Source: Corynebacterium freneyi
GTDB taxonomy: Bacteria; Actinomycetota; Actinomycetes; Mycobacteriales; Mycobacteriaceae
Assembly (NCBI RefSeq): GCF_030408835.1
Contig: NZ_CP047357.1
Location: 124,001-188,000 of the forward strand
Direction of reading: 5' to 3'
DNA length: 64,000 nucleotides
Shown piece by piece: positions 1 through 64,000 of this stretch. The notes beneath the pieces were generated by a model, which was not told the DNA's origin, searched no databases, and saw nothing but the letters and a program-made list of their open reading frames with translations. A program made the position numbers and the translations under genes. Numbering within the stretch: position 1 is the first letter of the stretch; the number at the start of each line of letters is the position of its first letter.

Positions 1-48
1 TGCCTGTCTTGCGACGGGCCGGAGGTTCGAATCCTCTCGCCTCCGCCA
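1..48 (+). tRNA. tRNA-Ser, 3' part only (window edge)
   Basis: The window opens inside a tRNA. A long variable arm (CTGTC, TTGC loop, GACGG) is followed by a T arm with TTCGAAT, then acceptor strand CGCCTCC, discriminator G and encoded CCA at 46-48. The long variable arm and G73 mark a class II serine tRNA. The anticodon lies outside the window. Confidence 0.8.
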
Positions 49-51
49 CTA

Positions 52-124
52 GCGCCCGTAGCTCAACGGATAGAGCATCTGACTACGGATCAGAAGGTTA
101 GGGGTTCGAATCCCTTCGGGCGCA
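52..124 (+). tRNA. tRNA-Arg(ACG)
   Basis: This is a complete 73-nt cloverleaf with acceptor GCGCCCG paired to CGGGCGC. The anticodon loop CTACGGA gives anticodon ACG, the substrate for A34-to-inosine editing by TadA (encoded at 8946). CCA is not encoded. It starts 3 nt after the preceding tRNA-Ser, so the two are probably co-transcribed. An identical copy lies at 3965-4037. Confidence 0.95.
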
Positions 125-1305: not shown

Positions 1306-2397
1306 TCAGCGCACCTTCTTGCCGTAGGTCTCCGCTATCGCCCGCGCCGTCGCCTTCGCATGCGGGCCCAGGCCCGTGATCGTCGCCGACCCCGGGCCCG
1401 TCCAATCGCCGTAACCCACCAAATGCAGACCCGGGACCGCCGGTTCGCGGCCATCCAGCAGCGACCGCACGGGGCCCAATGCCGGCCGGAAACCCGTGCA
1501 CCAGATCAGATGATCGAACCCGGCTGCGCCGTCATCGCCGTTGAGCTCGTCCATCGAGGAGAACATCGGCGTCGCCCGCAATCGCCCCTCGTCGCGGGCG
1601 GCGAGCACCTCGGGCAGCATCACGATGTCGCCCAACCGCGAATCCGGCCCCGGATCCTCCTCGTCACGCAGAATCGCCACCATTCGCTCCCGATTGCGAC
1701 GGAACAGCACCCGGCCATCGACGTCGTCGGGCATCCACTGCGGCTCGCGGCGCGTGAACCAGGTGACGTCGGCGACCCTCGTCAACTCCGCCGCGATCTG
1801 CGCCGCCGAGTTGGCCCCGCCGACCACCGCCACCTTCGAACCCCGGAACGGCTCCACCCCCGGATAGTTCGCCGAATGCCACTGCTTTCCGACGAACCGA
1901 CCCGGTAGATGGGGTACGAACGGCGCCGACCACGTGCCGGTCGCCGCGACGACGTGATCCGCCGCCCATGACCGGTCATCGGCGTGAATCAGGAACCGCC
2001 CGGCACCGGATCCCGAGGTCGAACCGGAAAGGGACGAGCCGTCGTCAAGCGAAGAACCGTCCCGCCCGCCGCGAAACTCCACCCGCGTGACGTGCACCGG
2101 GCGCTCCACGGGAATGGAATAGCGGTCCTCGTATTTGCGCAGGTAATCGATGACATGCGACGCCGGCGGGAAACCGTCGAACGCGGGCATCGGAATGCCG
2201 GGAAGGTTGGAGAATTCCGCCGTGGAAAACAGCGTCATCGACGGCCACACATGACGCCACGCGCCGCCCGGACCCTCCTGATCATCGAGGACCAGAACCT
2301 CGACACCCGCGCGCAACAGGTAATACGCCGTAGCCAACCCAGTCTGCCCGCCACCGATGATGACGACTTGATGGGAGGGGATCGGCGGAGAAGTCAT
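1306..2397 (-). CDS. FAD/NAD(P)-dependent monooxygenase-like oxidoreductase (CzcO/ArsO type)
   Basis: The 363-aa protein begins with a Rossmann FAD site (GGGQTGLATAYYLLRAG, residues ~14-30). GGAWRHVWPSMTLFS and a second dinucleotide site near VAVVGGANSAAQIA follow, the layout of single-component flavin monooxygenases of the CzcO/ArsO group. The substrate is unknown; no arsenic operon adjoins it. A Ser/Asp-rich loop near residues 116-130 carries a copy of the CGTCGTCAAGC repeat (2040-2050), encoding SSLDD-type sequence. The start is ATG at 2397. Confidence 0.8.
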   Translation of the reverse strand: MTSPPIPSHQVVIIGGGQTGLATAYYLLRAGVEVLVLDDQEGPGGAWRHVWPSMTLFSTAEFSNLPGIPMPAFDGFPPASHVIDYLRKYEDRYSIPVERPVHVTRVEFRGGRDGSSLDDGSSLSGSTSGSGAGRFLIHADDRSWAADHVVAATGTWSAPFVPHLPGRFVGKQWHSANYPGVEPFRGSKVAVVGGANSAAQIAAELTRVADVTWFTRREPQWMPDDVDGRVLFRRNRERMVAILRDEEDPGPDSRLGDIVMLPEVLAARDEGRLRATPMFSSMDELNGDDGAAGFDHLIWCTGFRPALGPVRSLLDGREPAVPGLHLVGYGDWTGPGSATITGLGPHAKATARAIAETYGKKVR

Positions 2398-4794: not shown

Positions 4795-4933
4795 CGCGGG
4801 CGGGAGTTTCCCCTGGGCAGAGGGTGTTAGCGTCGTCGGATTTGCTTGACGACGCCGCCGCGTGGTTGGTCACCGTTTGAGAACATTCGCCGGATTCGGC
4901 GTCCTCCGGGCTGACAAGCCGTCGCACCCGTTG

Positions 4934-6050: not shown

Positions 6051-6084
6051 CCCGGCGCCGCCACCGGGGCGGCGGACACCGAAA

Positions 6085-6127
6085 GAGGGGCCGTCGTCAA
6101 GCAGGAAACGCTTGACGACGGCCCCTC
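6085..6127. terminator. Bidirectional terminator built from two inverted CGTCGTCAAGC repeats
   Basis: A perfect 18-bp stem (6085-6102 with 6110-6127) encloses a 7-nt loop between convergent genes. The inner part of each arm is the repeat CGTCGTCAAGC, which recurs throughout the window. Weak T content follows on either strand. Confidence 0.75.
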
Positions 6128-6143
6128 TCCATCGGGGAAACCC

Positions 6144-7100
6144 CTACACGTCGTTCTTGACCAGCTCATCCAGCGGCGTCGGAGACAGCAGGTACGGCGC
6201 GACCTCCAGGACGGTGCGGGCACCGCTCTCGCCGGCCTGGCGCAGACGGTACGCGGCGCGACCGTAGGCGACCTGCACGGCCGCCGTGAAGTCGGGATTG
6301 CGCTCCAGCTCCAGGGTGAAATCGATGACGTGGCGCGACGAGCCCGCCCGACCCTGCGTGACCACCGTGCCACCATGCGGCATGCCCTGGTGATCCCGGT
6401 CGAACTCCTCCTCGGAGATGAAGTCGACGATGGTCTCGTACCCCACGAAGTAATCCGGCATGGTCACGATGGCCTCGCGGATCGAATCATGGTCGGCCTC
6501 GTCGGCGACGATGTAGCAGTGGCGGATGTGGCACTTCTTCGCGTCCAGGTCGCCGCCCTCCCCACGCTTGACGGCGGCGATGGCATCCGGATTCGGCTTG
6601 GTGTACTGCACGCCCTTCTTCACGCCCGGCACGCGGCGCACCGCATCCGAATGGCCCTGCGACAGGCCCGGGCCCCAGAACGTCATCTGGTCCGACCCGG
6701 GCAGCGTCGCCGCACCGTACACGCGGGCGAGGGAGAAGAAACCCGGATCCCAACCGGTCGAAATGACCGCCACCTGGCCGCCCTCGCGAGCCGCGACGTC
6801 CATGTCCGCGCGATGCCGCGGGATGTCGCGGTGATTGTCGTACGTGTCGACGGTCGTGTACAGCTTCGCCAGCGCCGGCGCCTGCTCCGGCACGTCCGTG
6901 GCGGAACCGAGGCAAACGAACAGCACGTCGACGTCGTCGGCATGCTTGTCGACGTCCGCCGCGGGCAGCACCTTGGCGTCCGTGTCCAGGGAGTCGCGAC
7001 GCGAGAACACGCCGACGAGTTCCATGTCGGGCTGATCGGCGATGACGCGCTCGACGCTGCGGCCGAGATTTCCGTAGCCGATGATGGCGGCGCGGATCAT
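6144..7100 (-). CDS. ddh: meso-Diaminopimelate D-dehydrogenase
   Basis: The 318-aa protein makes meso-diaminopimelate from tetrahydrodipicolinate, ammonia and NADPH in one step, the corynebacterial shortcut of lysine and cell-wall synthesis. It matches C. glutamicum Ddh, as I know that sequence, almost end to end: IGYGNLGRSVE (NADPH site), VDTYDNHRDIPRHR, STGWDPG, FWGPGLSQGHSDA, MPDYFVGYE and the C-terminal VLEVAPYLLSP. The ATG at 7100 was chosen over one at 7148 because AAAGGA precedes it and the NADPH motif then begins at the usual place. A -10 candidate, TACGCT, lies at 7182-7187 with A-rich tracts upstream of it. Confidence 0.95.
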   Translation of the reverse strand: MIRAAIIGYGNLGRSVERVIADQPDMELVGVFSRRDSLDTDAKVLPAADVDKHADDVDVLFVCLGSATDVPEQAPALAKLYTTVDTYDNHRDIPRHRADMDVAAREGGQVAVISTGWDPGFFSLARVYGAATLPGSDQMTFWGPGLSQGHSDAVRRVPGVKKGVQYTKPNPDAIAAVKRGEGGDLDAKKCHIRHCYIVADEADHDSIREAIVTMPDYFVGYETIVDFISEEEFDRDHQGMPHGGTVVTQGRAGSSRHVIDFTLELERNPDFTAAVQVAYGRAAYRLRQAGESGARTVLEVAPYLLSPTPLDELVKNDV

Positions 7101-7316: not shown

Positions 7317-8339
7317 CTAGAAGATGTCGATCCGCCCGCCCAGCCCCTCGGCCTGCACCAGGTCGCCGACCCAATCCCCGGTGCCGGGGCTGACGCGGAT
7401 GACCGGGCGCAACGACAACTTCGCGCCACCGTCGACCTTTCGCGAACCGGCCCGCGCCCGGTAGCGGCCGTGGGCGCGGAAACCGGCGTCGGCCAGCGTC
7501 GCCGCCGTGCCACGCTCGCGGAGCTCGGCGCGGGCGGCGGTGAGCAGCTCGATGACCTCGTCGAGGGCATCGACGACGGGGGCGACGTTGTTCTCGCACC
7601 AGGACATCACCATGTCGGGTTCCGCCCCCGCCACCCGCGTGCCGTCGCGGAACGACCCGGCGGCCAACGACAACGTCAACGGCCCGCCGTCATCGCCGAC
7701 GACCGCCAACGCATACGACAACAAGTGCGGCATATGCGAAATCCGGGCCACCGCACGGTCATGGTCGTCCGCCGTCGCGGGAATGACCTCGGACCCCACG
7801 AGCGCACCCAACGCCGCAACATCGCGGAACGTCTTCGTCCACTGCCGCGGCACCTCGGCCCCGTCCCGGCGTGCCTCGGCGGCCCGGTCGAAACAGACGA
7901 CCCACGCCGCGCCGTCGTAAAGCCCCGTACGAGTCGCCTCCCACCCCGACTCCTCCGAACCGGCCATCGGATGCGCGCCGACGTAACGGTCGCCCATCCC
8001 GCGCGCCTCGACTTCATCGAGAATCGCGCGCTTGACGCTCACCACATCCGTGATGCCGCAATCCGGCGCGAGCTCGGCGATCTGATCCAGCAGGCCACCC
8101 ACCGCGAACATGGGCACCCCGATGACGAGCAACGCCCGATCCTCCTGCGCCCGCCGCAGCACCGCCGCAAGATCCGTCGACGCGTCGAACCCCTCGGCGG
8201 CCGCAGCGTTCGCGGTCGCCGCGGAACGATTCCACCCGTACACCGGCGCACCCGCCGCCGCGAGATCGCGCATCAACGAACCCCCGATCAACCCGAGTCC
8301 GAGAATGCAGGTCGGCGTGGCGAAAGAGTCAATGGTCAC
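7317..8339 (-). CDS. tyrA: Prephenate dehydrogenase (tyrosine biosynthesis)
   Basis: The 340-aa protein oxidises prephenate, or arogenate in corynebacteria, in tyrosine synthesis. It opens with the NAD(P) site CILGLGLIGGSLMRDL, followed by IGVPMFAVGG, GAHPMAGSEESGWEA and SHMPHLLSYAL, all typical of TyrA. GTG at 8339 was chosen because it places the dinucleotide site about 12 residues in; a GTG at 8360 would add seven residues. No separate ACT domain is obvious. It diverges from the gene at 8378, with the two starts only 38 bp apart. Confidence 0.88.
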   Translation of the reverse strand: MTIDSFATPTCILGLGLIGGSLMRDLAAAGAPVYGWNRSAATANAAAAEGFDASTDLAAVLRRAQEDRALLVIGVPMFAVGGLLDQIAELAPDCGITDVVSVKRAILDEVEARGMGDRYVGAHPMAGSEESGWEATRTGLYDGAAWVVCFDRAAEARRDGAEVPRQWTKTFRDVAALGALVGSEVIPATADDHDRAVARISHMPHLLSYALAVVGDDGGPLTLSLAAGSFRDGTRVAGAEPDMVMSWCENNVAPVVDALDEVIELLTAARAELRERGTAATLADAGFRAHGRYRARAGSRKVDGGAKLSLRPVIRVSPGTGDWVGDLVQAEGLGGRIDIF

Positions 8340-8377: not shown

Positions 8378-8956
8378 ATGAGCACGACTTTTCCGGGGCA
8401 CGCGGACCCCGACCAGGGCCACCGCGACGATGACGACGACCGTTCCTACGCCGTCGCCGTCCTCCTCGGCGACGACGGGTGGACCGTGCGCGAACTCGGC
8501 GACGAGGCGCTGGACTCGCTGGCCGACGCCACCGCCCAAATGCGCCGCCTGCGCGCCGAACGCGCGTCGTTCGCGATGCTCAACATCGACGACGACTATT
8601 TCATCCTCCTGCGGCCCGTGCCCGGCGGCGTGCGCGTACTGCTTTCCGACGCCACCGCCTCGGTCACCGACGACATCGCCGCCGACGTCATGGACGAAAT
8701 CGACGAGGACATCCCCGACCTCGACGAAGACGAACTCGACGACGTCGACTCGTGGCCCGAGGGCGACCTGGAAATCCTCGCCGACCTCGGTGTGCCCGAA
8801 GACGTGCTGTCCGTCATCTGCGACGACCAATCCCTGTGGGCCTCCGAGCAACTGCACGCCATCGCGGCCGAGCTCGGCTTCGACGAAGCGCTTGCCGACG
8901 AAACCGGCGTCGACGTCGACGACCCGGACATCGACTACGCCCACGATGACGACTGA
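8378..8956 (+). CDS. tRNA adenosine deaminase-associated protein
   Basis: The 192-aa protein is very acidic (Asp/Glu-rich throughout) and is encoded directly before tadA, overlapping it by 11 nt. This is the usual position of the actinobacterial family named for that linkage. Visible blocks are YAVAVLLGDDGWTVREL, a two-stranded RPVPGGVRVLLSDAT and a C-terminal DVLSVICDDQSLWASEQL. A role supporting TadA is inferred only from conserved linkage; no catalytic motif is seen. Confidence 0.8.
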   Translation: MSTTFPGHADPDQGHRDDDDDRSYAVAVLLGDDGWTVRELGDEALDSLADATAQMRRLRAERASFAMLNIDDDYFILLRPVPGGVRVLLSDATASVTDDIAADVMDEIDEDIPDLDEDELDDVDSWPEGDLEILADLGVPEDVLSVICDDQSLWASEQLHAIAAELGFDEALADETGVDVDDPDIDYAHDDD

Positions 8957-9437
8957 CGGCCGCGCACTGCCACGACCCGAAACCCACGTCCGCGACGAAG
9001 AATGGATGCGCGCCGCCATCGACGTCGCCCGCCGCACCCCACCCGGCGACGTCCCCGTCGGCGCGATCATCGTCGGCCCCGACGGGACGGTCGTGGCGGA
9101 GGCGGCGAATCGTCGTGAAGCCGACGCCGACCCCACCGCCCACGCCGAAGTCCTGGCCATCCGCGCCGCCGCCCACGCACACGGCGACGGGTGGCGACTG
9201 GAGGAATGCACCCTCGTGGTGACCCTCGAACCATGCGTCATGTGCGCCGGCACCGCCGTCATGGCCCGCGTCGGCCGGATCGTGTTCGGTGCGTGGTCAC
9301 CGAAAACCGGGGCCTGCGGGTCGATTGTCGACGTCGTCCGCGACCCCGCCCACCCGTTCGCCCCCCACGTGCGCGGGGGAGTGCTCGCCGACGAATGCGC
9401 CGAGTTGCTGCCGGAGTTTTTCCGCGGCAAGCGGTGA
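8946..9437 (+). CDS. tadA: tRNA-specific adenosine deaminase
   Basis: The 163-aa deaminase converts A34 of tRNA-Arg(ACG) to inosine so that one tRNA reads CGU, CGC and CGA; two such tRNA genes lie in this window. The zinc-site signature is complete: TAHAEVLAI (HAE) and the PCVMC motif in TLEPCVMCAGT. Two GA-rich segments then lead to a C-terminal ECAELLPEFF helix. The ATG lies inside the upstream gene's end, so the two are translationally coupled. Confidence 0.93.
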   Translation: MTTDGRALPRPETHVRDEEWMRAAIDVARRTPPGDVPVGAIIVGPDGTVVAEAANRREADADPTAHAEVLAIRAAAHAHGDGWRLEECTLVVTLEPCVMCAGTAVMARVGRIVFGAWSPKTGACGSIVDVVRDPAHPFAPHVRGGVLADECAELLPEFFRGKR

Positions 9438-9915: not shown

Positions 9916-10077
9916 GTCGGTGTTGGAGCGGACGTGATCCCGCGTGCTCGTCGCAAGGCGTGGTCCGTTCGGCAGTCGGTGTTGGAGTGGACGTGATCGT
10001 GCGTGCTCGTCGGAAGGCGTGGTCCGTTCGGCGGTCGACGTTGGGGGGCGTGATCGTGCGTGCTCGTCGGGAAGCCC
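9916..10077. repeat. 59-bp tandem repeat, about 2.75 copies
   Basis: Units begin at 9916, 9975 and 10034 (GTCGGTGTTGGAG..., with inner GTGCTCGTCG and CGTGGTCCGTTCGGC). No credible gene lies here. There are no spacers, so it is not a CRISPR. Confidence 0.8.
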
Positions 10078-10600: not shown

Positions 10601-11008
10601 GTGGCATGGATGCGGGGGGTTGCCGTCGCCGGGAGCTGCCTCGGCGCCGCTTCTTCGGTCCGCGCGCGCCGGCCGCTTTTGCTTGACGACGGCCCGTCTG
10701 AACGTCGAAGCGTCGTAAAGCAACTGCGAAGCCGGAACGCGACGGCGGCGCGGAAAGGACGGGGTGGGGCAGAAGGGATGCGAAGGTGGGGTAGAAGAGG
10801 CGCGAAAGGGAACGGGGAGGCGACGCGGGAGGGGCGGGGCAGACGGTGCGGTGCGGCGGGGCGATGTGCTTGCTGGGGCAATTGTTTCGCCTGTTGTCAC
10901 GCGAGGTACATGCCTACACGTATCCTGGGAGGGTGGCGCGCGCGTTCTGCGGCAAAACTGCCGCCCGCGCGCTCGCGAAGCAACGCGAGTGATAGGGGAA
11001 GTTGAGCG
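10601..11008. other. Non-coding stretch upstream of the MMPL gene
   Basis: I see no supportable gene. The stretch holds a head-to-head pair of the repeat, GCTTGACGACG (10681-10691) and CGTCGTAAAGC (10711-10721), 19 bp apart. A TATCCT at 10921-10926 is a possible -10 for the transporter. Confidence 0.5.
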
Positions 11009-14000
11009 ATGGCCAAGGTCCTGTTCAACCTCGGCAGGTGGTCCTACCTGCACAAATGGACGGTCATCATCGCATGGGTGCTGATCCTCTGCGGTGTCGG
11101 CGGTGCGGCCGGCGCATTCCAAAAGGGATTCGACGACCAGTTCTCGATCCCCGGCATGCCGTCGTCGATCGCCTCCCACATGATCGAGGACAAGTTCCCC
11201 AACGAAATCAACCCCATCCGCGAACAAACCGTCTACGTCGTGTTCGCCGCCCCCGAAGGCGAAAAACTCGAAGACCCCGGGAACATGGAAGCCGCCGACG
11301 CCGTCGTCGCCTCCATCAAGGACAACATCGACCAACTCACCGCCGACCAGATGCTCGTCAACCCGGTGCGGCTCAACCCCGAACTGCAACGCACCATCAT
11401 CGACGTCGGCACCAGCTCCGGCCTGCCGGAAAACGTCGCCAAGGCCGACGCCCACGCACTGCGCATGCTGTCCGAAGACGGCCGCTACGGCATCTCCCAA
11501 TTCGCCTTCGACGTCCGCGTCCCCAAGGACATCACCCCCGAAAACCGCCAGGCCCTGTTCGACGCCATGCAAATCGGCCGCGACGCCGGGCTGCAGGTCG
11601 AAGCGATGGGCCCCGGCATGATGGACCCCGTGGCCGTCAGCGCCACGTCGGAGATCATCGGCATCTCGGTCGCGGCGGCGGTGCTGATCGTGACGTTCGG
11701 CTCCCTCGTCGCCGCAGGCCTGCCGCTGATCACAGCCGTCGTCGGCATCGCGATCGGCTCGCTGCTCGTCGTGTTCATGACGTCGTTCACCACCGTCAAC
11801 TCCATCACCCCGGTGCTGGCGGTCATGATCGGCCTGGCCGTCGGCATCGACTACGCCCTGTTCATCCTGTCGCGCTACCGGTCCGAACGAGCCCGCGGGC
11901 TGACGAGAGCCGACGCCGTCGGCATGGCCACGGGCACGGCCGGTTCATCCGTCGTGTTCGCCGGCCTGACGGTCATCGTGGCGTTGGCGGCGCTGGTGCT
12001 GGCGAAGGTGCCGTTCCTGTCGCTGATGGGCATTTCCGCGGCGATCACCGTCGGCATCGCGGTGATCATTTCGCTGACGCTGCTGCCGGCGCTGATGGCG
12101 CTGTTCGGGGAGAAGATTTTCGCGGTGAAGATCCCGGGCATCGCGGGCAACCCGCTCAAGGGCAGCCGCCGCCCGCTGTTCGGGGGCAAGACGATGGGCC
12201 GCAGGTGGGTCGAGGCGATCCACAAGTCGCCGGGCCTGTTCCTGGTCGGCGCGGTCGGCATTTTGGTGGCGCTGTCGGTGCCGGCGGCGAACCTGCAGTT
12301 GGCGTTGCCGTCGGACTCGACGTCGCCGTACGGGTCGACGCAGCGCAATGCGATCGAGTTGGCGGCGGAGGGCTTCGGCCCGGGCCGTAATGCGCAGATG
12401 CTGATCGTCGCCGACGCGGATGACGTCAATCCGAATGCGGCGGTGCTGCAGCCGGTGGCGCGGGGTCTGATGTCGGGCGATCCGTCGATGTCGCCGGAGG
12501 ATGCGGCGCGGAAGGCGGCGTTCAGTTACGCGTTGGATCATTTCAAGAACAACGTCGACGTTGAGCACGTGCAGATGATCGGCATGAACGAGGACGGCAC
12601 GGGCGTGCAGATGATGCTCACGCCGAAGGCCGGCCCGCTTGATTCGGAGACGGGGTCGCTGATTGCGGCGTTGCGTGCGCAGCAGAATCAGATCGAGGAG
12701 GCCACGGGCCTGGTCACGGGCGTGACGGGGCTGATCCCGATTGAGCAGGACATCACGCAGCGGTTGTCGGATGCGATGCCGGTGTACCTGTCGGTGGTCA
12801 TCGGCCTGGCGATCGTGCTGCTGTTGCTGGTGTTCCGTTCGTTGGTGGTGCCGTTGACGGCGGGGCTGGGCTTCCTGTTGTCGGTTGGTGCGGCGTTCGG
12901 CGTGACGGTGCTGTTCTGGCAGGAGGGCCTGTGGGATCTGGTGCATACGCCGGGGCCGCTGGTCAGTTTCATTCCGATTTTCATGATCGGCGTGACGTTC
13001 GGTTTGGCGATGGACTATCAGGTGTTCCTGGTGTCGCGGATGCGGGAGCATTACACGCATTCGAAGGGGGTGTCGCGGCCGGGTTCGCGGTACAACGCGG
13101 TGGAGGAGTCGGTCATCGAGGGCTTCTCGTTGGGGGCGCGTGTGGTGACGGCGGCGGCGATCATCATGATCGCGGTGTTCGTGGCGTTCATCGGGCAGCC
13201 GTTGGCGTTCGTGAAGGTGTTCGGTTTCGCGTTGGGTGCGGCGGTGTTGTTCGATGCGTTCCTGGTGCGGATGACGTTGATTCCGGCGTCGATGTTCCTG
13301 TTGGGGCGTGCGACGTGGTGGATGCCGAAGTGGCTGGATCGGGTTTTGCCGTCGGTGGATGTCGAGGGTTCGGCGTTGGAGTCGAAGGCGGATGAGCTCG
13401 CGGCGGCGGGCAAGGCGGAGCGTGAGGCGGCGGCTTCGTCGCTTGACGACGGTTCGTCGGATTCCGGGGCGGCGAAGGGCCGCAAGCGGCGGAAGGGCCG
13501 CAAGGGCGGCAAAAACGGCAAGGATGCCAAGGACGCCAAGGGAACCGAAGCCGCCAAGGGGACCGAAGCCGCCAAGGGTGCCGGGGCGCTCGGCGGTGGT
13601 TCGGTCATCGGCGGTGCGGCCGCCGCGGCGCTGTCGCCGACGTTCCGGGAGCCGGCGCGGTCCACGGATGATGAGGCGACGACCGAGTTCCCGCTCGTCG
13701 ACGCCGAACTCGTCGAGGAGCCGAAGGGCCGCACGATCCGTGGCCCGGAGGTGCCGGTGACCTCGAAGCCGGAGTCGCAGCCGGAGCCGCACCGCACCCC
13801 GTTCAGCAGCCCCTACGCGGAGCGTCGTCTCAAGCGGGAGGAGGAGCGGGCCGCCCGTCTGAAGCGGGAGGCCGAGGAGAAGGAGGAGAAGGCGGCCGTC
13901 GAGCGAAGCGCGCAGCGGGTGTCGTGGCCGCCGCAGCAGCCCGCCGCGCCCGCCGGGCCGGTAGAGCCAGCCGAGTCGGCCGGGCCGGCCGAGCCAGCCG

Positions 14001-17113: not shown

Positions 17114-17191
17114 CCGCCGGACACCCGCCGCCGACACCACGGATTCGCGGCCGGAGGCGACGAGACGGGCGTCGTAAAGCAACCCCTTACC

Positions 17192-17204: not shown

Positions 17205-18227
17205 ATGCACGCCGCCGCCGACACCCCCGCCCGCCCCTACGTCGGGCGATACGCGCCATCGCCGACCGGCCACCTCCACCTGGGGAACCTGCGCACCGCC
17301 GTCATCGCATGGGCGCGCGCCCGCGCCGCCGGCGGCCGATTCCTCGTGCGCATCGAAGACATCGACCGCCAACGATCCCGCCCCGAATACGAGGCCCGCC
17401 AACTCGCCGACCTCGCCGCCATCGGCCTCGACTGGGACGACGAACCCGTCCGCCAATCCGACCGCCACCCGCTTTACGACGACGCAATCCGCCGCCTGCC
17501 CACATACCCCTGCTACTGCTCCCGCAAGGACATCCAACGCGAACTCGCCGAAATCGGCGGCGCACCCCACGGCGCCCCCGGCGCATACCCCGGGACCTGC
17601 CGCGACCTGACCGACGACCAGCGGGCCGACAAAGCCGCAGCACTCGCCGCCGACGGGCGCGGACCATCCCTGCGACTGCGCTCCGACGTGCGCGAATGGA
17701 CCGCCCGCGACGCCCTGCACGGCACCATCGCCGGCGACGTCGACGACATGGTGCTGCGACGCGCCGACGGAATGTGGGCCTACAACCTCGCCGTCGTCGT
17801 CGACGACGCCGACCAGGGCGTCACCGAAATCGTGCGCGGCGACGACCTGCTGAGCTCCGCGCCCCGGCAGGCGCACCTCGCGCATCTGCTCGGCGTGCCC
17901 GAGCCGATGTACGCGCATGTGCCGCTCGTCGTCAGCGCCGAGGGGCGGCGGCTGGCCAAACGCGACGGCGATGTGACGCTGCGCGACATCACCGCCGAGC
18001 AGGCGAAACGGTGGATCATCGAGTCGTTGCGGGCGGGGGCGGGCGTTGCGGGCGCGGGCGGTGCGGAAGCCTTGCGCGAGGATGCCGCCGGTGTGGGCGC
18101 TGACGCAGCTGGTGCGGGGGCGGGCGGTGCGGGCGCAGATGTTTTCGCCGAGGTCGACGACATCGCCGACCTGCCGGAGGTCTTCGACCTGATGGCGATT
18201 CCTCGGGAGCGCGTCGTCTTTCGCTGA
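17205..18227 (+). CDS. gluQ: Glutamyl-Q tRNA(Asp) synthetase
   Basis: The 340-aa protein is a truncated class I GluRS that attaches glutamate to queuosine 34 of tRNA-Asp rather than to a tRNA end. The HIGH-type motif is in [17 protein letters not shown] and the KMSKS counterpart in [12 protein letters not shown]. The zinc-type CxC...Y...C cluster ([22 protein letters not shown]) is complete, and the anticodon-binding domain is absent as expected. Residues ~278-310 are an Ala/Gly low-complexity insert. The family acts only on Q-modified tRNA, agreeing with tgt and the YhhQ-type gene nearby. Confidence 0.92.
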
Positions 18228-21839: not shown

Positions 21840-21974
21840 TCGGTGGCGGTCGCGCGTTCGGGGGTGCGCGTGTCGGGAGTGCGGGCCTGTTGGGGGCGGG
21901 CATTTTTGCTTGACGACGGTCGGTCGCCGCGCGGTTCGGCGTGGCGGTAGCGGCGACCGATTCGCCCTTGCGAC

Positions 21975-49577: not shown

Positions 49578-49693
49578 GCGGGTGTGGCGGATGTTGCTGG
49601 TGTGTGGCCAGTTGCTTGACGACGTCCGGCCCTCCGCGCGTACGGGCCCAGCATCGGGGCCATGGCCGGGTGGCCGGGCGTTGTTCCGGTGCG

Positions 49694-50828: not shown

Positions 50829-51038
50829 CCGAGGCGGCGGCCGTCGTAAAGCACGTGCCCGCGCCCAACCGGCGCAGGGGAAGCAAAGGCCTGTTCGGCG
50901 GCGGAATCTCGGGAAGCAGCGGCGACGGCCACTGTTGTATCGTTTACGGGAAACCGGAGTGCGGCGCACGCACGACGGCAATGGCCCGGGCGGAGCGTGC
51001 CCGGGCTGACGGTCGAACAGGTCTGGAGGACGCCGACC

Positions 51039-52304
51039 ATGGCATTGGTCGTACAGAAGTACGGTGGTTCATCGCTGGAAAACGCGGAGCGCATTCGCCG
51101 CGTGGCGGAGCGCATCGTGGAGACCAAAAAACAGGGCAACGACGTCGTGGTCGTCTGCTCGGCGATGGGCGACACCACGGACGAGCTGCTGGATCTGGCG
51201 AATCAGGTCAATCCGGTGCCGCCGGCGCGCGAGATGGACATGCTGCTGACCGCCGGCGAGCGCATTTCGAACTCGCTGGTGGCGATGGCCATCGCGAGCC
51301 TCGGTGCGTCGGCGCGGTCGTTCACGGGCTCGCAGGCGGGCGTGATCACGACGGAGCGCCACGGCAACGCGCGCATCGTCGAGGTGACGCCGGGCCGCGT
51401 GCGCGAGGCGCTGGACGAGGGCCACATTTGCCTGGTGGCCGGGTTCCAGGGCGTCAACCGCGAAACGAAGGACGTGACCACGCTGGGCCGCGGCGGGTCG
51501 GACACGACGGCCGTGGCGCTGGCCGCGGCGCTGGAAGCCGACGTCTGCGAGATTTACTCGGACGTCGACGGCGTGTACACGGCGGACCCGCGCATCGTGC
51601 CGAACGCGCAGCGCCTGGACACCATTTCCTTCGAGGAGATGTTGGAGATGGCCGCAGTGGGCGCGAAGATTCTGCAGTTGCGCTGCGTGGAGTATGCGCG
51701 GGCGTTCAACGTGCCGCTGCGCGTGCGTTCGTCCTACAGCAATGAAATCGGCACCCTCGTCAATGGATCAGTGGAGGATATTCCCGTGGAAGAAGCAGTT
51801 CTCACCGGCGTCGCGCATGATCGCTCGGAGGCCAAGATCACCGTTCTGGGCATCCCGGATGTCGCGGGCCAGGCGGCGCAGGTGTTCCGTGCGGTGGCGG
51901 ATGCGGAGATCAACATCGACATGGTGTTGCAGAACGTGTCGTCGATCGACGACAACCGCACGGACATCACGTTCACGTGCCCGCGTGCGGATGGGCCGCG
52001 TGCGTTGGAGTTGTTGAAGAAGCTGCAGGCCGAGGGTGACTGGCAGGACGTGCTTTACGACGATCACGTGGGCAAGGTGTCGCTCGTCGGTGCCGGCATG
52101 AAGTCGCACCCCGGAGTCACCGCGACGTTCTGCGAGGCGTTGGCGGAGGCCGGCGTGAACATCGAGTTGATTTCGACGTCGGAGATCCGCATTTCGGTGC
52201 TGATCCGCGACAATGACCTCGATGCCGCCGTCCGTGCGCTGCACGAGGCGTTCCAGCTCGGCGGCGAGGAAGAGGCCGTCGTGTACGCGGGTACGGGCCG
52301 CTAG
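51039..52304 (+). CDS. lysC: Aspartokinase, alpha subunit
   Basis: The 421-aa enzyme phosphorylates aspartate, the entry step to lysine, threonine and methionine. The kinase domain has [16 protein letters not shown] at the N-terminus, then [17 protein letters not shown] and [16 protein letters not shown]. Two ACT domains follow from ~residue 265 ([19 protein letters not shown] and [15 protein letters not shown]), which bind Lys and Thr for feedback inhibition. The length equals that of C. glutamicum LysC. GGAGG lies 9 nt before the ATG. asd follows 195 nt downstream. Confidence 0.96.
51786..52304 (+). CDS. Aspartokinase, beta subunit (internal in-frame start)
   Basis: GTG at 51786 is preceded by GGAGG (51773-51777) with an 8-nt spacer, inside lysC and in frame. 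It would give a 172-residue ACT-domain subunit starting MEEAVLTGV, the same length as the known C. glutamicum beta subunit. The local sequence around the site is AT-richer than the rest of the gene. Confidence 0.82.
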
Positions 52305-52448
52305 TTCGGGTGTCGGGGCCGGTTGCGGCTGGTCCCGGTCCGGGTGGCCGGTGCTTTACGACGGTCCGGTTGCGGCGTAGTTTCGCAGTTGCGCCGTGGT
52401 TTGCGGGTGCGTGTCCGGCCGCCCGTTTTCACGAGTTTTCACGTTTGA

Positions 52449-53616: not shown

Positions 53617-54219
53617 TCAGATGGCGGTCAGTCGTCGTGAAGCGGGGCCGTCGTCGTCGGAGGCTTTGTCCGCTTCTTCGGGGCCTTCGGCGGCGGCGAC
53701 GAGGTCCTGGCGGGCGCGGGCCACGCGGGAGCGGATGGTGCCCACGCGCACGCCGGCGATGTCCGCGGCTTCCTTGTAGGTGTAGCCGAGCACCTGGGTG
53801 AGGATCAGTGCTTCACGACGATCCTCGTCCAGCGATTCCATGAGCACCCGCGCGTCGACGAGCTCGGCCCAGGAGGTGCCGGTCGACGATGCCTGGGTGG
53901 CGTCTTCCCACTCGACGGCGGATTTGCGGGGCCGTGCCATGTCGTGGCGGACGGAGTCGACCCAGGCGCGGCGGGCCAGCGACAGCAGCCATGTGCGGGC
54001 CGAGGAGCGGCCGGCGAATCGGGGCAGGGCCGACATGACGCGCAGGTAGGTTTCCTGCGTCAGATCGTCGGCGACGTCGGCGTTGGCCAGGTGGGCCAGG
54101 AGGCGCCACACGTCGTTCTGGGTGGCGCGGATGAACTCGGTCAACGCGGCGCGGTCGCCGCGGCCGGCCTTCAGGGCCAGGGCGGTGACGCGCTCGTCTT
54201 CGCGCTGCCGATCAGTCAT
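53617..54219 (-). CDS. sigC: ECF sigma factor, SigC type
   Basis: The 200-aa sigma factor has region 2 (ALTEFIRATQNDVWRLLAHL and DVADDLTQETYLRVMSALPR) and region 4 (LDEDRREALILTQVLGYTYK, then EAADIAGVRVGTIRSRVARAR). The position between asd and katA is that of C. glutamicum sigC, which I recall being linked to respiratory control. No anti-sigma gene is seen beside it. It is divergent from katA with a 142-bp shared upstream region. Confidence 0.88.
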   Translation of the reverse strand: MTDRQREDERVTALALKAGRGDRAALTEFIRATQNDVWRLLAHLANADVADDLTQETYLRVMSALPRFAGRSSARTWLLSLARRAWVDSVRHDMARPRKSAVEWEDATQASSTGTSWAELVDARVLMESLDEDRREALILTQVLGYTYKEAADIAGVRVGTIRSRVARARQDLVAAAEGPEEADKASDDDGPASRRLTAI

Positions 54220-54361: not shown

Positions 54362-55858
54362 ATGACCTCCAGCAAGGACATCGCCGACCAGGGACTGGAC
54401 ACCGGCACCGGCAACGGCGGCACCACCCGTCTCAACGGCGCCCCCGTCTCCTCCGAACAGCACTCGGTGACCACCGGCCCCCAGGGCGGCGTCGTGGTCC
54501 ACGACGTGCATCTGATCGAAAAGCTCTCCCACTTCAACCGCGAGCGCATCCCGGAGCGCGTCGTCCACGCCAAGGGCGGCGGCGCCTTCGGCGAGCTCAC
54601 CGTCACCGAGGACGTGAGCAAGTACACCAAGGCGGGCCTGTTCCAGCCGGGCACGGTCACGCCGATGCTCGCCCGTTTCTCCACCGTCGCCGGCGAGCAG
54701 GGTTCGCCCGACGGTTGGCGCGACGTCCGCGGCTTCGCGCTGAAGTTCTACACCGATGAGGGCAACTACGACATCGTCGGCAACAACACCCCGGTGTTCT
54801 TCATCCGCGACGGCATCAAGTTCCCGGATTTCATCCACTCCCAGAAGCGTCTGCCGGACACGGGTCTGCGCGACGCCAACATGCAGTGGGATTTCTGGAC
54901 GTCGTCGCCGGAGTCCGCCCACCAGGTCACCTACCTCATGGGTGACCGGGGCATCCCGAAGACCTGGCGCAACATGGACGGTTTCGGCTCCCACACGTAC
55001 CAGTGGATCAACGAGGCCGGCGAGCGGTTCTGGGTGAAGTACCACTTCAAGACCCGCCAGGGCTGGGATTTCCTCACCGACGCCGAGGCCGAGGAGCTCG
55101 TCGGCCAGGACACCGACCATTCCCGCAAGGATCTCTTCGAGGCCATCGAGCGCGGCGACTTCCCGACGTGGGACGTCAAGGTGCAGATCATGCCCTTCGA
55201 CGACGCCGCCGGTTACCGCTGGAATCCCTTCGACCTGACCAAGACCTGGTCGCAGAAGGATTACCCGCTGATTCCCGTGGGGCACTTCACGCTCAACGAG
55301 AATCCGCGCAACTTCTTCGCCCAGATCGAGCAGGCCGCATTCGCGCCGTCGAACCTGGTCGAGGGCGTCGGGCTGTCGCCGGACAAGATGCTGCTGGCCC
55401 GCGCGTTTGCCTACTCCGACGCTCACCGGTACCGTCTGGGCGCCAACCACGATCAGCTGCCGGTCAACCGGCCGGTCGTGCAGGTGAACACGTTCTCCCA
55501 GGACGGCGCCGCCACTCACCGTTTCGCCGATCCGTCGCTGCCGGTCCACGGTTCCAATGCTGCCGGTCGCGGCGCCCAGGAGTCCGTCGATCACGGTGAT
55601 TTGGGCCTGTGGGCGGCCGAGGGCGAGGAGCCGTTCCGCGGCGCGTACATCCAGCACGCCGAGGACGACGACTTCGGCCAGGCGGGGACTCTCGTCCGTG
55701 AGGTGCTTGACGACGCCGCCCGCGACCGCTTGGCCGGCAACATCGCCCGTGCGATGGAGGGCGTGAGCCCGGAGGTCGAGGAGCGCGTGTACCAGTACTG
55801 GACCAACGTCGACGAGTGGCTCGGCGCCGAGGTCCGGGCGCGTTTCACCGCCAAGTAA
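54362..55858 (+). CDS. katA: Haem catalase
   Basis: The 498-aa small-subunit (clade 3-like) catalase decomposes H2O2. The distal His69 is in RERIPERVVHAKG, the distal Asn in DIVGNNTPVFFIRD, and the proximal haem Tyr region in ARAFAYSDAHRYRLG. NADPH-pocket residues lie around HYQWINEAGERFWVKYHF-type sequence. AAGGAG lies about 6 nt before the ATG. The upstream region has an AT-rich CTATATATAG palindrome (54287-54296), a likely promoter or operator. The C-terminus carries LDDAARDR from a GCTTGACGACG copy. Confidence 0.95.
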   Translation: MTSSKDIADQGLDTGTGNGGTTRLNGAPVSSEQHSVTTGPQGGVVVHDVHLIEKLSHFNRERIPERVVHAKGGGAFGELTVTEDVSKYTKAGLFQPGTVTPMLARFSTVAGEQGSPDGWRDVRGFALKFYTDEGNYDIVGNNTPVFFIRDGIKFPDFIHSQKRLPDTGLRDANMQWDFWTSSPESAHQVTYLMGDRGIPKTWRNMDGFGSHTYQWINEAGERFWVKYHFKTRQGWDFLTDAEAEELVGQDTDHSRKDLFEAIERGDFPTWDVKVQIMPFDDAAGYRWNPFDLTKTWSQKDYPLIPVGHFTLNENPRNFFAQIEQAAFAPSNLVEGVGLSPDKMLLARAFAYSDAHRYRLGANHDQLPVNRPVVQVNTFSQDGAATHRFADPSLPVHGSNAAGRGAQESVDHGDLGLWAAEGEEPFRGAYIQHAEDDDFGQAGTLVREVLDDAARDRLAGNIARAMEGVSPEVEERVYQYWTNVDEWLGAEVRARFTAK

Positions 55859-58896: not shown

Positions 58897-59482
58897 GGCG
58901 GTTCTCCTTTCGGTCGGCGGGGGCCGGGTCATCATGCTTGACGACGCCGGCGTTCCGGTCGCCCGGCCCACCGCCATCGGTGGCCGGCTCCGGAATGACG
59001 TCGTCCTCCATCGGGTCGTCGACCACCGTGACGGAGTCGGGCAGGCTCGGCAGCCCCTGCGCGGTTTCGGCGGCGGTGCCGATGACCTCGTCGGGGTCGG
59101 AGTGCACTTCCGGGTCGTAGTCGTCGAAGACGAAGGCCTCCGGGCGGGGCAGATCGCGCACCCGCGGGGACATGCGCTCCTCCATGTCGTACAGCGAATC
59201 GCAGACGCCCTCGAAATCCGCGCCGAACACCGCGTGGACGATGAACATGCGGCGACCGCCCTCCAGGGCGCGGATGCCGCAGACGAGGGTGCCCGGCGTC
59301 ATGGTGATCGACGCCGACAAACCCACGATTTCGGTGTCGGTGGTGATGCGCAGCGGCATGCCGATGAGGATCGGCTTCTGCTTTTGCCTGGCCCGGAACG
59401 TATCCGCGATCACCTCCGTCGCGGCGATGACGACCTGACCGGTCAACCACGCGCCGTAGGCGGGAATGTGCAGGATGCTCAT
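58889..59482 (-). CDS. mrpE: Mrp antiporter subunit E
   Basis: The 197-aa protein has the MrpE core (GAYGAWLTGQVV-type membrane start, VIADTFRARQKQKPILIGMPL, ASITMTPGTLVCGI and FIVHAVFG). An unusually long acidic hydrophilic tail (~120-197) follows. The tail's end contains NAGVVKHDD, encoded by a GCTTGACGACG copy (58936), close to the mrpF start. ATG at 59482 overlaps the mrpD stop (ATGA). Confidence 0.88.
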   Translation of the reverse strand: MSILHIPAYGAWLTGQVVIAATEVIADTFRARQKQKPILIGMPLRITTDTEIVGLSASITMTPGTLVCGIRALEGGRRMFIVHAVFGADFEGVCDSLYDMEERMSPRVRDLPRPEAFVFDDYDPEVHSDPDEVIGTAAETAQGLPSLPDSVTVVDDPMEDDVIPEPATDGGGPGDRNAGVVKHDDPAPADRKENRHD

Positions 59483-61125: not shown

Positions 61126-61568
61126 CAGCGATCACCGTCCTGGGGCGATACGGGCGGGTAGTGCTCCATCCGAACCGCTCCCGCACCCGAACCGGCGTCG
61201 GCCGGGCGCAGGCGGCGGGCCTTGCGGCCGGCTGTCGACAACTGGGCATTGGCCTCCCGGTCCTCGCGGATCCGTGTGTCGTCGTCGCGGCCCAGGGCCG
61301 ACATCGCCAACATGAAGGCCGTCACCGCCATGGTGATGACGATGGCCGTCAACACGAACGCCTGCGGCAGCGCATCCGCCGCCGTCTCCGCCTCCGCATT
61401 GCCCATCAGGGGCTCCTGCCGCCAGGCGCCCACGCCCGTCGACAGGATGATCAGGTTCGCCGCATGCGAGATGAACGTCATCCCGATGATGATGCGCACC
61501 ATGCCGCGCTGCAGCACCAGGTACGCGCCGCCGCCGGCGAGCACGGCCGCGATGAGCGCGATGATCAT
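61125..61568 (-). CDS. mrpC: Mrp antiporter subunit C
   Basis: The 147-aa NuoK-like protein has three membrane helices. The family blocks are YLVLQRGMVRIIIGMTFISHAANLIIL and DALPQAFVLTAIVITMAVTAFMLA. An Arg/Asp-rich cytosolic tail extends past residue 100. It overlaps mrpA by 4 nt. Confidence 0.92.
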   Translation of the reverse strand: MIIALIAAVLAGGGAYLVLQRGMVRIIIGMTFISHAANLIILSTGVGAWRQEPLMGNAEAETAADALPQAFVLTAIVITMAVTAFMLAMSALGRDDDTRIREDREANAQLSTAGRKARRLRPADAGSGAGAVRMEHYPPVSPQDGDR

Positions 61569-64000
61569 GCCCGCACCTCCTTCTTGTCGGAACCGTTCTT
61601 CTCGCCGCCGCCGGAACCGCCGGGACCATCCCCGCCGGCACCGGACCCGGAGACCGGACCATGCCCCGACGAGCCGTCGTAAAGCTCGTCCGGGACGCCC
61701 TCGCCCGCCGGATCCCCGTACGCGGAATCCGCGGCGACGGCCTGATCCGGCTTCTGCTGCGGCGGAACGGCAAGCCCCGTGCGATGCACCACCGTCGGGC
61801 CAAGCTCATCATCGGACTTCGGCGACCCCGGACGAGTCGGCCCGCCCAGATGATTGAGCGCCGTGGCCACGATGCCCAGCACCGCCAGGTACACGCCCAC
61901 GTCGAAAATCAACGCCGTGGTCAGATGCTGCCCGGCCACCGTGCCATGCAGCGGAGCCAGGAACGAGCCCTCCAGGAAACCGACGAAACCGATGACGATG
62001 GCCACGATCACGCCGAAACCGCTGAACAGGTACGGCACGTTGCGGCCCATCAGCGGGCGGTCATCCGGATTCGACAGGTACTTCAGCATCAGCGCCGACG
62101 AACCGATCAACGCCGCATTGAAGCCGCCGCCCGGCTCGTTGCCGCCGCGGTACAGCACGATCACCGACAGCACCAGCAGCAGCGGCGTCATCCACCGCAC
62201 CAGCCTGCGCAACGGCAGCGAATTCAGACCCGGCTGCGGCAGCGGCCCCGGACGACCCGGGTGATGCGGCCACCGCGGCATCGACGCCACCACCGCGGCC
62301 ATCGCGATGCCCGCCATGCCCAGCACGGCGAGCTCGCCCAACGTATCGAAGGCACGGAACTCGACGAGGATCGTGTTGACCACGTTGTCCTCCGACGTGA
62401 TCTTCGGGCCCTCCTCGAGGTACCACTGCGCGATCTCCGGCTTGTCGCGGCGACCCGTCAGGGTCCACACCGCACCGAAGGTCGCCAGGCCCACGCCGAC
62501 GCCCACCACCGCCGCGACCATGCGGCGATTGCGGCCCGTGCCCGAGAAGGCGCGGGGCTGGTGGCGCAGCACCAGCATCATCAGCACGACCGTTAGCACC
62601 TCCACCAGGAACTGCGTCATGGCCACGTCCGGCGCACCCAACAGCAGCACCTGCAGGGTCACGCCCGTGCCGGTGACGCCCAACAGCACCGCCGCCTGCA
62701 GGCGATTGCGGGCCTGCATCGTGGCGACGACGCCGATGACGACCACCGTCAACGGGATCAGGTCCATCCACGAATCGATGCCGTCGATCTTGTCCGGCAG
62801 CTCCATGCCGCCGAGGCCCGGCGCCAGCAGAACCGCACCCGCGTAGACCACGAGCACCGACAACATCGGCAGCAGGTGGCGCGTCGGCGCATGCGAATCG
62901 CCGATCGCCGCGAAGGAACGGCCCACCCGGCCGGCGGCGCGCGTTCCGAACGACAGCGCCTGCACGCCCGTGAACGGGAACAGCTTCCGGCCCGCCAGGG
63001 CCTCGTTCATCCGGCCGCGCATCAGCACCAGCAGCACGCCGACGACGAGCACGCCCACAGAAATGAGCAGCGGCACGTTGACGCCGTGCCACAGGGCCAG
63101 GTGCGTCTCGGCGTAGCCGCCGCCGAGCACCGTGCGGGACACCGAATCGAGCGGGCCGTCGAGCAGCGGGCCGACGAAGAACGCCAGCGGCAGCGACACG
63201 ACGCCCGGGATCGCGGCGGGCAGCCACAGGGCGACGGGCGCCTCGCGGACCTCGGACATGTCGCGGGGGCCGTCGACGAACGCGCCGAAGATCAGGCGCG
63301 CCGAATACGTGAACGTGGCGATCGCGCCGATCGTGGCGGCCACCAGCAGCACCACCACGCCGGCGTCGGCCAGCGGGGCATCGGTGAACGCCTCGAGCAT
63401 GCCCTCCTTCGACAGGAAGCCCAGCGTCGGCGGGATCGCCGCCATCGACGCCGCGCCGATCACCATCGACCCGAAGGTCCACGGCATGCGGCGCCACAGC
63501 GGGCCCAGGCGACGGATGTCGCGCGTGCCCGTCTGATGGTCGACCGTGCCGGCCAGCATGAACAAAGACGACTTGAACAGCGCGTGCGCCAGCGTGTGCA
63601 CCACCGCGGCGACGATGGCGAAGTGCGTGCCCACGCCGATCGTGGCGACGATCCAACCCAGCTGCGACACCGTCGAGTACGCCACCAGGCGCTTCAGGTC
63701 CGTCTGCTGGATGGCGAACATGGCCGCGGACACCGCCGTGGTCATGCCCACGACGATGAGCAGCACCTGCCACGCCTGCACGTGCGAGAACGCCGTCGCG
63801 AAGCGGATGAGCAGGTACACGCCGGCCTTGACCACCGCCGCGGCGTGCAGGAACGCCGACACCGGCGTCGCCGCCGCCATCGCCTCCGGCAGCCACGCCT
63901 GGAACGGCACCTGCGCCGCCTTGGTGAACGCACCCAACGCCACCAGCACCGCGACGACCGTGGTCACCGTGGCGTCGCCGCCGGGACGCCACACCTCGTG
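61565..64000 (-). CDS. mrpA: Mrp antiporter subunit A fused to B (N-terminus beyond the window)
   Basis: At least 810 residues are present; the start lies beyond 64000. The visible part begins inside the ND5-like channel (TKAAQVPFQAWLPEAMAAATPVSAFLHAA, FAIQQTDLKRLVAYSTVSQLG, LAHALFKSSLFMLAG). The MrpA-specific C-terminal region follows, then an MrpB domain (LLLVLSVIVLYRGGNEPGGGFNAALIGSSAL and FDVGVYLAVLGI), so A and B are fused as usual in actinobacteria. A Gly/Ser/Asp-rich tail of ~80 residues with a GCTTTACGACG-type copy (61675) ends the protein. Confidence 0.93.
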   Translation of the reverse strand, partial: HEVWRPGGDATVTTVVAVLVALGAFTKAAQVPFQAWLPEAMAAATPVSAFLHAAAVVKAGVYLLIRFATAFSHVQAWQVLLIVVGMTTAVSAAMFAIQQTDLKRLVAYSTVSQLGWIVATIGVGTHFAIVAAVVHTLAHALFKSSLFMLAGTVDHQTGTRDIRRLGPLWRRMPWTFGSMVIGAASMAAIPPTLGFLSKEGMLEAFTDAPLADAGVVVLLVAATIGAIATFTYSARLIFGAFVDGPRDMSEVREAPVALWLPAAIPGVVSLPLAFFVGPLLDGPLDSVSRTVLGGGYAETHLALWHGVNVPLLISVGVLVVGVLLVLMRGRMNEALAGRKLFPFTGVQALSFGTRAAGRVGRSFAAIGDSHAPTRHLLPMLSVLVVYAGAVLLAPGLGGMELPDKIDGIDSWMDLIPLTVVVIGVVATMQARNRLQAAVLLGVTGTGVTLQVLLLGAPDVAMTQFLVEVLTVVLMMLVLRHQPRAFSGTGRNRRMVAAVVGVGVGLATFGAVWTLTGRRDKPEIAQWYLEEGPKITSEDNVVNTILVEFRAFDTLGELAVLGMAGIAMAAVVASMPRWPHHPGRPGPLPQPGLNSLPLRRLVRWMTPLLLVLSVIVLYRGGNEPGGGFNAALIGSSALMLKYLSNPDDRPLMGRNVPYLFSGFGVIVAIVIGFVGFLEGSFLAPLHGTVAGQHLTTALIFDVGVYLAVLGIVATALNHLGGPTRPGSPKSDDELGPTVVHRTGLAVPPQQKPDQAVAADSAYGDPAGEGVPDELYDGSSGHGPVSGSGAGGDGPGGSGGGEKNGSDKKEVRA

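Follow-up and report, generated by a model that had tools for sequence, protein, structure and literature searches.

A stretch of 64,000 nt of the genome of Corynebacterium freneyi (the window, at its full length; own genome G000, 2.88 Mb) carries 54 copies of the short word CGTCGNNAAGC, 27 on the plus and 27 on the minus strand, whereas an order-5 Markov model of the window gives a mean of 3.9 and a maximum of 7 in 30 simulations. The word, whose broader form is CRTCGNNAAGC, is best explained as a DNA-uptake signal read by a Tad/ComEA/ComEC apparatus, a reading to which we give a probability of roughly 0.8. Most of the sequence-level tests of this interpretation, which had first been put forward in an earlier note on the window (the original prediction), came out as predicted.

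Abundance and form of the word

The original prediction had described 35 copies of a narrower form, CGTCGTMAAGC (M = A or C), and the same number was recovered here (21 of CGTCGTCAAGC and 14 of CGTCGTAAAGC; 16 on the plus and 19 on the minus strand), with every start position as given before except 40128, which should read 40130. These 35 copies are part of the 54. That they far exceed expectation, as had been judged from base composition, is borne out by the order-5 Markov model (30 simulations of the window, mean 3.0, maximum 7). One-base variants of CGTCGTMAAGC are scarce, save at the two bases following CGTCG, which was the first hint of a free middle. The four variants pointed out earlier, at 9111, 24417, 42118 and 53633, do exist but are actually copies of the general word CGTCGNNAAGC; likewise, the A or C at position M is only the preference of this species, and CGTCGTMAAGC is the local form of the broader word CRTCGNNAAGC. 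Among sampled copies from the own genome the middle is TC or TA in 53/104 copies of CGTCGNNAAGC, and base 2 of CRTCGNNAAGC is G in 104/105. The flanks carry little information; an A 3' of the core (22/35) and a purine two bases 5' of it (33/35) are preferences, not requirements.

Genome-wide, CGTCGTMAAGC occurs 698 times (353 forward, 345 reverse) as compared with 18 (8 + 10) for the reversed pattern used as a control, and CRTCGNNAAGC 1,786 times (898 + 888) as compared with 132, an average spacing of about 1.6 kb. Relative to the genome, the window is enriched 2.3-fold in CGTCGTMAAGC but no more than about 1.4-fold in the general word. A count near the fifth-order Markov expectation and an enrichment confined to the window are thus both excluded. 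The mixed orientation remarked on earlier was confirmed: in samples of nine genomes 178 copies were leading and 183 lagging (called from local GC skew, a rough indicator), and the first 797 kb of the own genome hold 100 of the 353 forward copies versus 97.7 expected. The FtsK-orienting polar sequences (KOPS), with their strong strand polarity from origin to terminus, were rejected on these figures. A highly iterated palindrome of the HIP1 type was also rejected, since such words are palindromic and CGTCGNNAAGC differs from its own reverse complement.

Outside called genes lie 16/54 copies of CGTCGNNAAGC and 13/35 of CGTCGTMAAGC, the latter being the thirteen intergenic copies of the original prediction, at a noncoding share of the window of 15.2% (as determined with our own simple codon-usage gene caller). 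In the own-genome sample 28/104 copies (27%) are noncoding, although noncoding DNA makes up 13.9% of the sampled sequence. The other 76 are spread over six frame classes, with 58 of them in just two, as might be expected if codon or peptide usage, or a repetitive mobile element (repetitive extragenic palindrome or bacterial interspersed mosaic element, REP/BIME), were behind the abundance. Synonymous-codon shuffling of the 128 called genes (100 shuffles) leaves a mean of only 11.3 copies (maximum 17) against the 76 observed, however, and the order-5 model falls short to a similar degree (3.9 versus 54); together with the uninformative flanks, the conserved silent sites and the scarcity on plasmid-sized contigs (both below), this makes such an origin extremely improbable. 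REP/BIME repeats have a longer shared palindromic unit, and in their strict sense were rejected because the flanks carry so little information.

The copies at 6092 and 6110 form the arms of a perfect 19-bp hairpin, which was proposed earlier to be a terminator and which is indeed terminator-like by its form, a perfect stem between convergent genes that end at 6050 (+) and 6144 (-). Among neighbours within 60 bases of each other in the nine-genome samples, 8 were inverted and 4 ran in the same direction (raw counts). The hairpin and all copies of CGTCGNNAAGC in the window are listed below (G164 is the close relative aligned in the next section).

6084..6128, perfect 19-bp hairpin, terminator-like, two inverted word copies, fold -41.4 kcal/mol, z -10.0
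1884..1894, -, CGTCGGAAAGC, in gene 1306-2397 (-)
2040..2050, +, CGTCGTCAAGC, genic, intact in G164
4844..4854, -, CGTCGTCAAGC, intergenic
6092..6102, +, CGTCGTCAAGC, intergenic, left stem of the hairpin, CGTCGCAAAGC in G164
6110..6120, -, CGTCGTCAAGC, intergenic, right stem of the hairpin, CGTCGTAAAGC in G164
6944..6954, -, CGTCGACAAGC, genic
7913..7923, +, CGTCGTAAAGC, genic, intact in G164
8641..8651, -, CGTCGGAAAGC, genic
8890..8900, -, CGTCGGCAAGC, genic
9111..9121, +, CGTCGTGAAGC, genic
10065..10075, +, CGTCGGGAAGC, intergenic
10681..10691, -, CGTCGTCAAGC, intergenic, inverted neighbour of 10711
10711..10721, +, CGTCGTAAAGC, intergenic
13441..13451, -, CGTCGTCAAGC, in MMPL-like transporter gene
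14293..14303, +, CGTCGTCAAGC, in tgt
15028..15038, -, CGTCGGAAAGC, in tgt
17170..17180, +, CGTCGTAAAGC, intergenic
17471..17481, -, CGTCGTAAAGC, genic
18835..18845, +, CGTCGTAAAGC, genic, inverted neighbour of 18875
18875..18885, -, CGTCGTAAAGC, genic
21049..21059, +, CGTCGTCAAGC, in AMP nucleosidase gene
21908..21918, -, CGTCGTCAAGC, intergenic
22805..22815, +, CGTCGTCAAGC, in heavy-metal P-type ATPase gene
23310..23320, -, CGTCGTCAAGC, in heavy-metal P-type ATPase gene, CGTCGGAAAGC in G164
24417..24427, +, CGTCGCAAAGC, in heavy-metal P-type ATPase gene
25995..26005, +, CGTCGTCAAGC, genic
27956..27966, +, CGTCGTCAAGC, intergenic
29538..29548, -, CGTCGTAAAGC, genic
32243..32253, -, CGTCGTCAAGC, genic
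32343..32353, +, CGTCGTCAAGC, genic
33567..33577, -, CGTCGTCAAGC, genic
37747..37757, -, CGTCGGAAAGC, genic
39209..39219, +, CGTCGCCAAGC, genic
40130..40140, -, CGTCGTCAAGC, genic
40316..40326, +, CGTCGGAAAGC, genic
41339..41349, +, CGTCGGAAAGC, genic
42118..42128, +, CGTCGCAAAGC, intergenic
42540..42550, -, CGTCGTCAAGC, genic
45358..45368, +, CGTCGTAAAGC, intergenic
45423..45433, +, CGTCGTAAAGC, intergenic
46087..46097, -, CGTCGTAAAGC, genic
47238..47248, -, CGTCGGAAAGC, genic
47537..47547, +, CGTCGCCAAGC, genic
48041..48051, +, CGTCGGCAAGC, intergenic
49614..49624, -, CGTCGTCAAGC, intergenic
50842..50852, +, CGTCGTAAAGC, intergenic
52052..52062, -, CGTCGTAAAGC, genic
52353..52363, -, CGTCGTAAAGC, intergenic
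53633..53643, +, CGTCGTGAAGC, genic
53810..53820, -, CGTCGTGAAGC, genic
55705..55715, -, CGTCGTCAAGC, in catalase-like gene
58936..58946, -, CGTCGTCAAGC, genic
61675..61685, +, CGTCGTAAAGC, genic
63794..63804, +, CGTCGCGAAGC, genic

Conservation in relatives

The orthologous region of G164 comprises 48,958 aligned bases, of which 86% are identical. Among fully aligned copies, 26/34 are intact in G164 and 12/16 in G175, as against 1/4 in the more distant G099. At third codon positions the core is identical to G164 at 0.897 of sites (n=107), compared with 0.693 in the 60-base flanks and 0.749 in the remainder; G175 concurs (0.865 in the core versus 0.675), and the intergenic identity with G164 is 0.868 in the core (n=53) versus 0.722. 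The two middle positions swap between relatives while the other nine bases are mostly kept. We take this pattern as a sign of maintenance by selection or drive. The flanks of the copies are less conserved in G164 than the remaining gene sequence at every codon position, which indicates that the copies sit in tolerant parts of genes and fits the earlier remark that they fall in loops or linkers.

Distribution and dialects within the genus

CRTCGNNAAGC was found at least 4-fold over its reversed control in 151/201 Corynebacterium genomes (153 to 2,032 copies, median 1,150), at 2-4 times the control in 8 and below 2 in 42. Summed across the 151 genomes, the strands are balanced (86,503 forward, 86,368 reverse). 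In 140 genomes from 30 other genera of the family it reached at most 2.7-fold, and single genomes of Rhodococcus, Mycolicibacterium and Millisia were at background. The comparison with related species proposed in the original prediction yielded a word that is spread across the genus. Eight named Corynebacterium genomes were reached by a TadA search: C. haemomassiliense (1,456 copies), C. lemuris (919), Corynebacterium sp. KPL1814 (1,064), C. alimapuense (440), two Corynebacterium metagenome-assembled genomes (741 and 642) and, with weak enrichment, C. meridianum (157) and C. pygosceleis (144). Their counts are each identical to one of the 201, and on this match the 201 are taken to belong to Corynebacterium.

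K-mer analysis of dialects covered 15 Corynebacterium genomes, with 144 kb taken from the own genome and 80 kb from each of the others. The top k-mers were CGTCGT[CA]AAGC in the own genome, CGTCGGCAAGC in G004, CGTCGAGAAGC in G019, CGTCGACAAGC in G097 and G192, CGTCGGAAAGC in G043, and CATCGGCAAGC in G006 and G053, all of which match CRTCGNNAAGC; in G010 and G015 the top k-mer was GGTGGCGTCG. Plain k-mer analysis gave no clear word in G033, G039, G139, G152 and G163, of which G139 and G033 were later resolved; the enrichment in G163 was rejected as an uptake word since it consists of simple repeats. The dialects differ at the middle bases and at base 2, the latter being G in 34/39 copies of G004 and A in 28/30 of G006. 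These two genomes are close relatives by TadA with identical mature Flp pilins, and the pair is a natural experiment for the receptor. An attempt to derive the receptor from this dialect switch failed, as the TadE, TadG-like and ComEA-like proteins all differ slightly.

Plasmid-sized contigs

In 334 kb read from 18 secondary contigs (6-145 kb in size, out of 14 motif-rich genomes) the word occurs 16 times, compared with 126.8 predicted from genome density and 9.4 from control density; the reversed word occurs 5 times. Ten contigs were typed by one protein each, with a TrwC relaxase on five and a replicase on one, and these six hold 4 copies where 52 were predicted. L194 (1.9 kb) and L202 (a chromosome) were excluded. 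L193 (G069:C2, 5,990 bases), which was kept among the 18, encodes a methyl-accepting chemotaxis protein, presumably unexpected in Corynebacterium, and is possibly a contaminant contig. Two contigs of G117, L197 with a Type ISP restriction-modification protein and L198 with a TrwC relaxase, have one copy of the word each in 20 kb.

Three further explanations bear on this distribution. A word of the Chi kind, marking recombination hotspots and controlling a RecBCD/AdnAB-type nuclease, would be abundant, chromosomal and scarce on plasmid-sized contigs, just as observed, and recombination would conserve it too. Known Chi words, however, are strongly oriented with replication, and the absence of orientation bias, the intergenic enrichment, the free two-base middle and the species dialects within one genus render this account quite improbable. 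Little credence is likewise given to a restriction-modification, methylation or other self-marking site, or a HIP1-like word, enriched independently of uptake: the word is bipartite with a spacer, genome-wide and scarce on plasmid-sized contigs, but it is not palindromic, its middle varies within a genome and its base 2 between species groups, and it is present in 151/201 species, unlike the fast-changing restriction systems. Finally, one copy per about 1.6 kb, some of them intergenic, would suit the site of an abundant nucleoid or regulatory DNA-binding protein. This, too, is considered improbable, given that 76/104 sampled copies lie inside genes, that polarity is lacking and that plasmid-sized contigs, which would presumably be coated by a nucleoid protein as well, have the word at a near-background level.

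Putative uptake machinery and Tad types

ComEC was found in 201/201 Corynebacterium genomes, and a ComEA-like gene (called by sequence pattern: helix-hairpin-helix plus SLBB-like) lies upstream of it in 20/20 loci read, 10 of them from motif-rich genomes and 10 from genomes with background or weak counts. A TadA-type ATPase scored above the Pfam cut-off in 77/80 genomes, the three misses being two assemblies of 370-380 contigs and one of 80. The search for comEA/comEC and pilus genes advised in the original prediction was therefore successful. The own Tad locus (G000:C1:209.8-214.9 kb, about 22 kb beyond the window end) has the order TadZ/Ssd-like, TadA, TadB, TadC, Flp pilin, TadE, TadG-like, where all names other than TadA are assigned from signatures. 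Copies of the word also occur within Tad genes of this locus (L005 14503-14513 in tadE and 10901-10911 in the TadZ/Ssd-like gene). Presence or absence of ComEC or Tad was rejected as the cause of the difference between motif-rich and motif-poor species, because both are near universal.

Tad loci were typed by TadA profile score, TadB-C fusion and a TadA tree. The 63 chosen loci that were read comprised 43 with a score of at least 472 (type-1) and 20 with a score of at most 400 in which a TadB-C-fusion-like reading frame of 349-421 residues begins at the TadA end (type-2). The profile was built from six type-1 sequences and its score gap therefore leans toward type-1; the tree and the fusion are independent of it. 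A branch with 100/100 support separates the two types in the TadA tree (62 rows; G129 was omitted as too short). One side holds 38 genomes with CRTCGNNAAGC at least 2-fold over control (33 of them at least 4-fold) and 4 without, the other 6 with a related word, GGCGTCGRNNNRAR, and 14 with neither. Scoring of 27 further genomes, which cover all background genomes then untyped and include the already typed G129, added 11 type-2, 10 type-1 (6 wordless) and 3 intermediate genomes; 2 fragmented assemblies (G024 and G092) gave no TadA hit. G000 and G033 were scored a second time alongside them. The intermediates G013, G077 and G123 (421-425 bits) have the classic word at 5- to 6.5-fold and are a possible third Tad lineage. 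In total, CRTCGNNAAGC is at least 2-fold over control in 43/53 type-1, 3/3 intermediate and 0/31 type-2 genomes scored. An earlier division based on the T2SSE scores of 77 genomes (Fisher p 7e-15) was left unused, since the borderline genomes G047, G084 and G129 had been assigned with motif counts known.

More than 100 copies of GGCGTCGRNNNRAR were found in 7 genomes, all of them type-2 (7/31); because the pattern was derived from samples of G010, G015 and G033, only G066, G072, G135 and G148 are independent finds. The related word is strand-balanced (214/213 in G033, control 20), occurs in several frames and has an A-rich tail, and on these same features Chi and codon effects were rejected for GGTGGCGTCG in type-2 species. 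Weaker type-2 dialect candidates, for which no claim is made, were seen in samples L255-L262 and L267-L270: GGCGTCAAT in G054, TGGCGTCC[CA] in G158 and GGCGTCC[TCA]C in G128, the last being frame-biased and perhaps codon-driven. The sample of G030 (type-2) gave no clear candidate word.

Interpretation

Under the uptake-signal reading, free DNA carrying the word would be bound by a putative receptor on the Tad/Flp pilus, pulled in, passed to ComEA and ComEC, and integrated into the chromosome by recombination. An uptake bias for tagged DNA would make new or repaired copies likelier to be passed on, and copies would thus accumulate and be kept at silent and intergenic sites; plasmids would be nearly free of the word because they would not recombine with the chromosome. 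We infer competence, a receptor on the pilus and uptake bias as the driving force from the genomic pattern, and the preference for tagged DNA and the identity of the reading protein are predictions of the same kind.

Several observations weigh against this reading. Natural transformation in Corynebacterium is not reported among the matches listed for the open-licence literature of PubMed Central. No receptor was singled out when the pilins, TadE, TadG-like and ComEA-like proteins of G004 and G006 were compared. Species without the word likewise have Tad, ComEA-like and ComEC genes, and it is missing from 10/53 type-1 genomes (G014, G039, G082, G133, G152, G163, G171, G172, G181 and G183), so that no known component explains the loss. 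A modest excess of GGCGTCGRNNNRAR in G013, G077 and G123 (72-73 copies, 4.6- to 7.2-fold), and in the type-1 genome G014 (45 copies, 4.1-fold), means that the separation of words by Tad type is imperfect at the weak end. Shared descent by itself may account for the match between motif class and Tad type, and this match is no proof that the word is read by Tad. Few inverted pairs lie close together. Lastly, the 23.5% of the window without an alignment to G164 contains 20/54 copies in whole or in part; copies are no rarer there and hence are not confined to shared DNA.

A wider proposal, which we hold to be somewhat probable, is that a language for taking up self-DNA has evolved independently for a third time in Corynebacterium, where it would be the first of any Gram-positive bacterium and be read by Tad/Flp pili; the word classes CRTCGNNAAGC and GGCGTCG plus A-rich tail would have co-diversified with the two Tad lineages, and switches of dialect would hinder gene exchange between close species. 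Confidence in it was lowered slightly on account of the 6 added wordless type-1 genomes and the intermediates with both words.

Other repeats

The window contains three copies of a 74-base element that resembles a small repeat or a miniature mobile element; its ends are formed by the inverted repeat CGACAAATGCAGCC, which is 14 bases long and perfect (6 matches versus 0.55 expected). In two sister species without the uptake word, G107 and G017, scattered inverted pairs of the REP/BIME type were seen around GTTTTGCAGAGTTTGATGCCG.

10356-10429, 18307-18380 and 19572-19645, 74-base element
L265 10508-15027, L221 808-2686 and L212 1239-1284, REP/BIME-like pairs around GTTTTGCAGAGTTTGATGCCG in G107 and G017

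Relation to known uptake systems

The DNA uptake sequences (DUS) of Neisseriaceae occur every 1-2 kb on both strands, with dialects between species. The probable Corynebacterium signal resembles them, with their minor pilin ComP as receptor, in being a short, abundant word with dialects alongside a type IV filament and ComEC; it differs in that Corynebacterium is Gram-positive and has a Tad/Flp pilus, in its unrelated word with a free two-base middle, and in its putative receptor and predicted uptake. With the uptake signal sequences (USS) of Pasteurellaceae it shares abundance and two dialect groups, and the terminator-like hairpin in the window may parallel their terminators built from inverted pairs. 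The A-rich stretch that follows their core is reminiscent of the type-2 word, while the words themselves, the phyla and the pilus systems differ. DUS words are given as about 9-12 bases and PpdA/ComN as the predicted USS receptor in Pasteurellaceae (PMC12616744), inverted pairs of uptake words are described to form terminators in H. influenzae, and a survey of spaced motifs reports CRISPR-related pairs (clustered regularly interspaced short palindromic repeats) for the three Corynebacterium genomes that it names (PMC5217627).

Micrococcus luteus, another actinobacterium, is transformed through Tad/Flp pili with ComEA/ComEC according to PMC4322843 and PMC6370729, the former also describing a TadB-TadC fusion in the tad-2 cluster. 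The Tad-1/Tad-2 system, as presented there, is thus similar in its actinobacterial Tad/Flp pilus, ComEA, ComEC and TadB-TadC fusion; it differs in that M. luteus requires two tad clusters and that competence in Corynebacterium is a prediction. The expression 'uptake sequence' is absent from the main text of PMC4322843. The original prediction knew of no such signal in Corynebacterium, and no uptake word for Corynebacterium or another actinobacterium is among the matches listed for the open-licence literature of PubMed Central, outside which preprints and most subscription papers lie.

Uptake words that tag self-DNA have so far been reported in just two Gram-negative families. If the uptake-signal reading is true, the Corynebacterium signal would be a third origin, in another phylum and with another pilus, and general rules of signal origin, dialect drift and loss would thereby become testable. 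Most Corynebacterium species would then be predicted to be naturally transformable, now or recently, and the word would provide a handle for genetics and for tracing gene flow between species.

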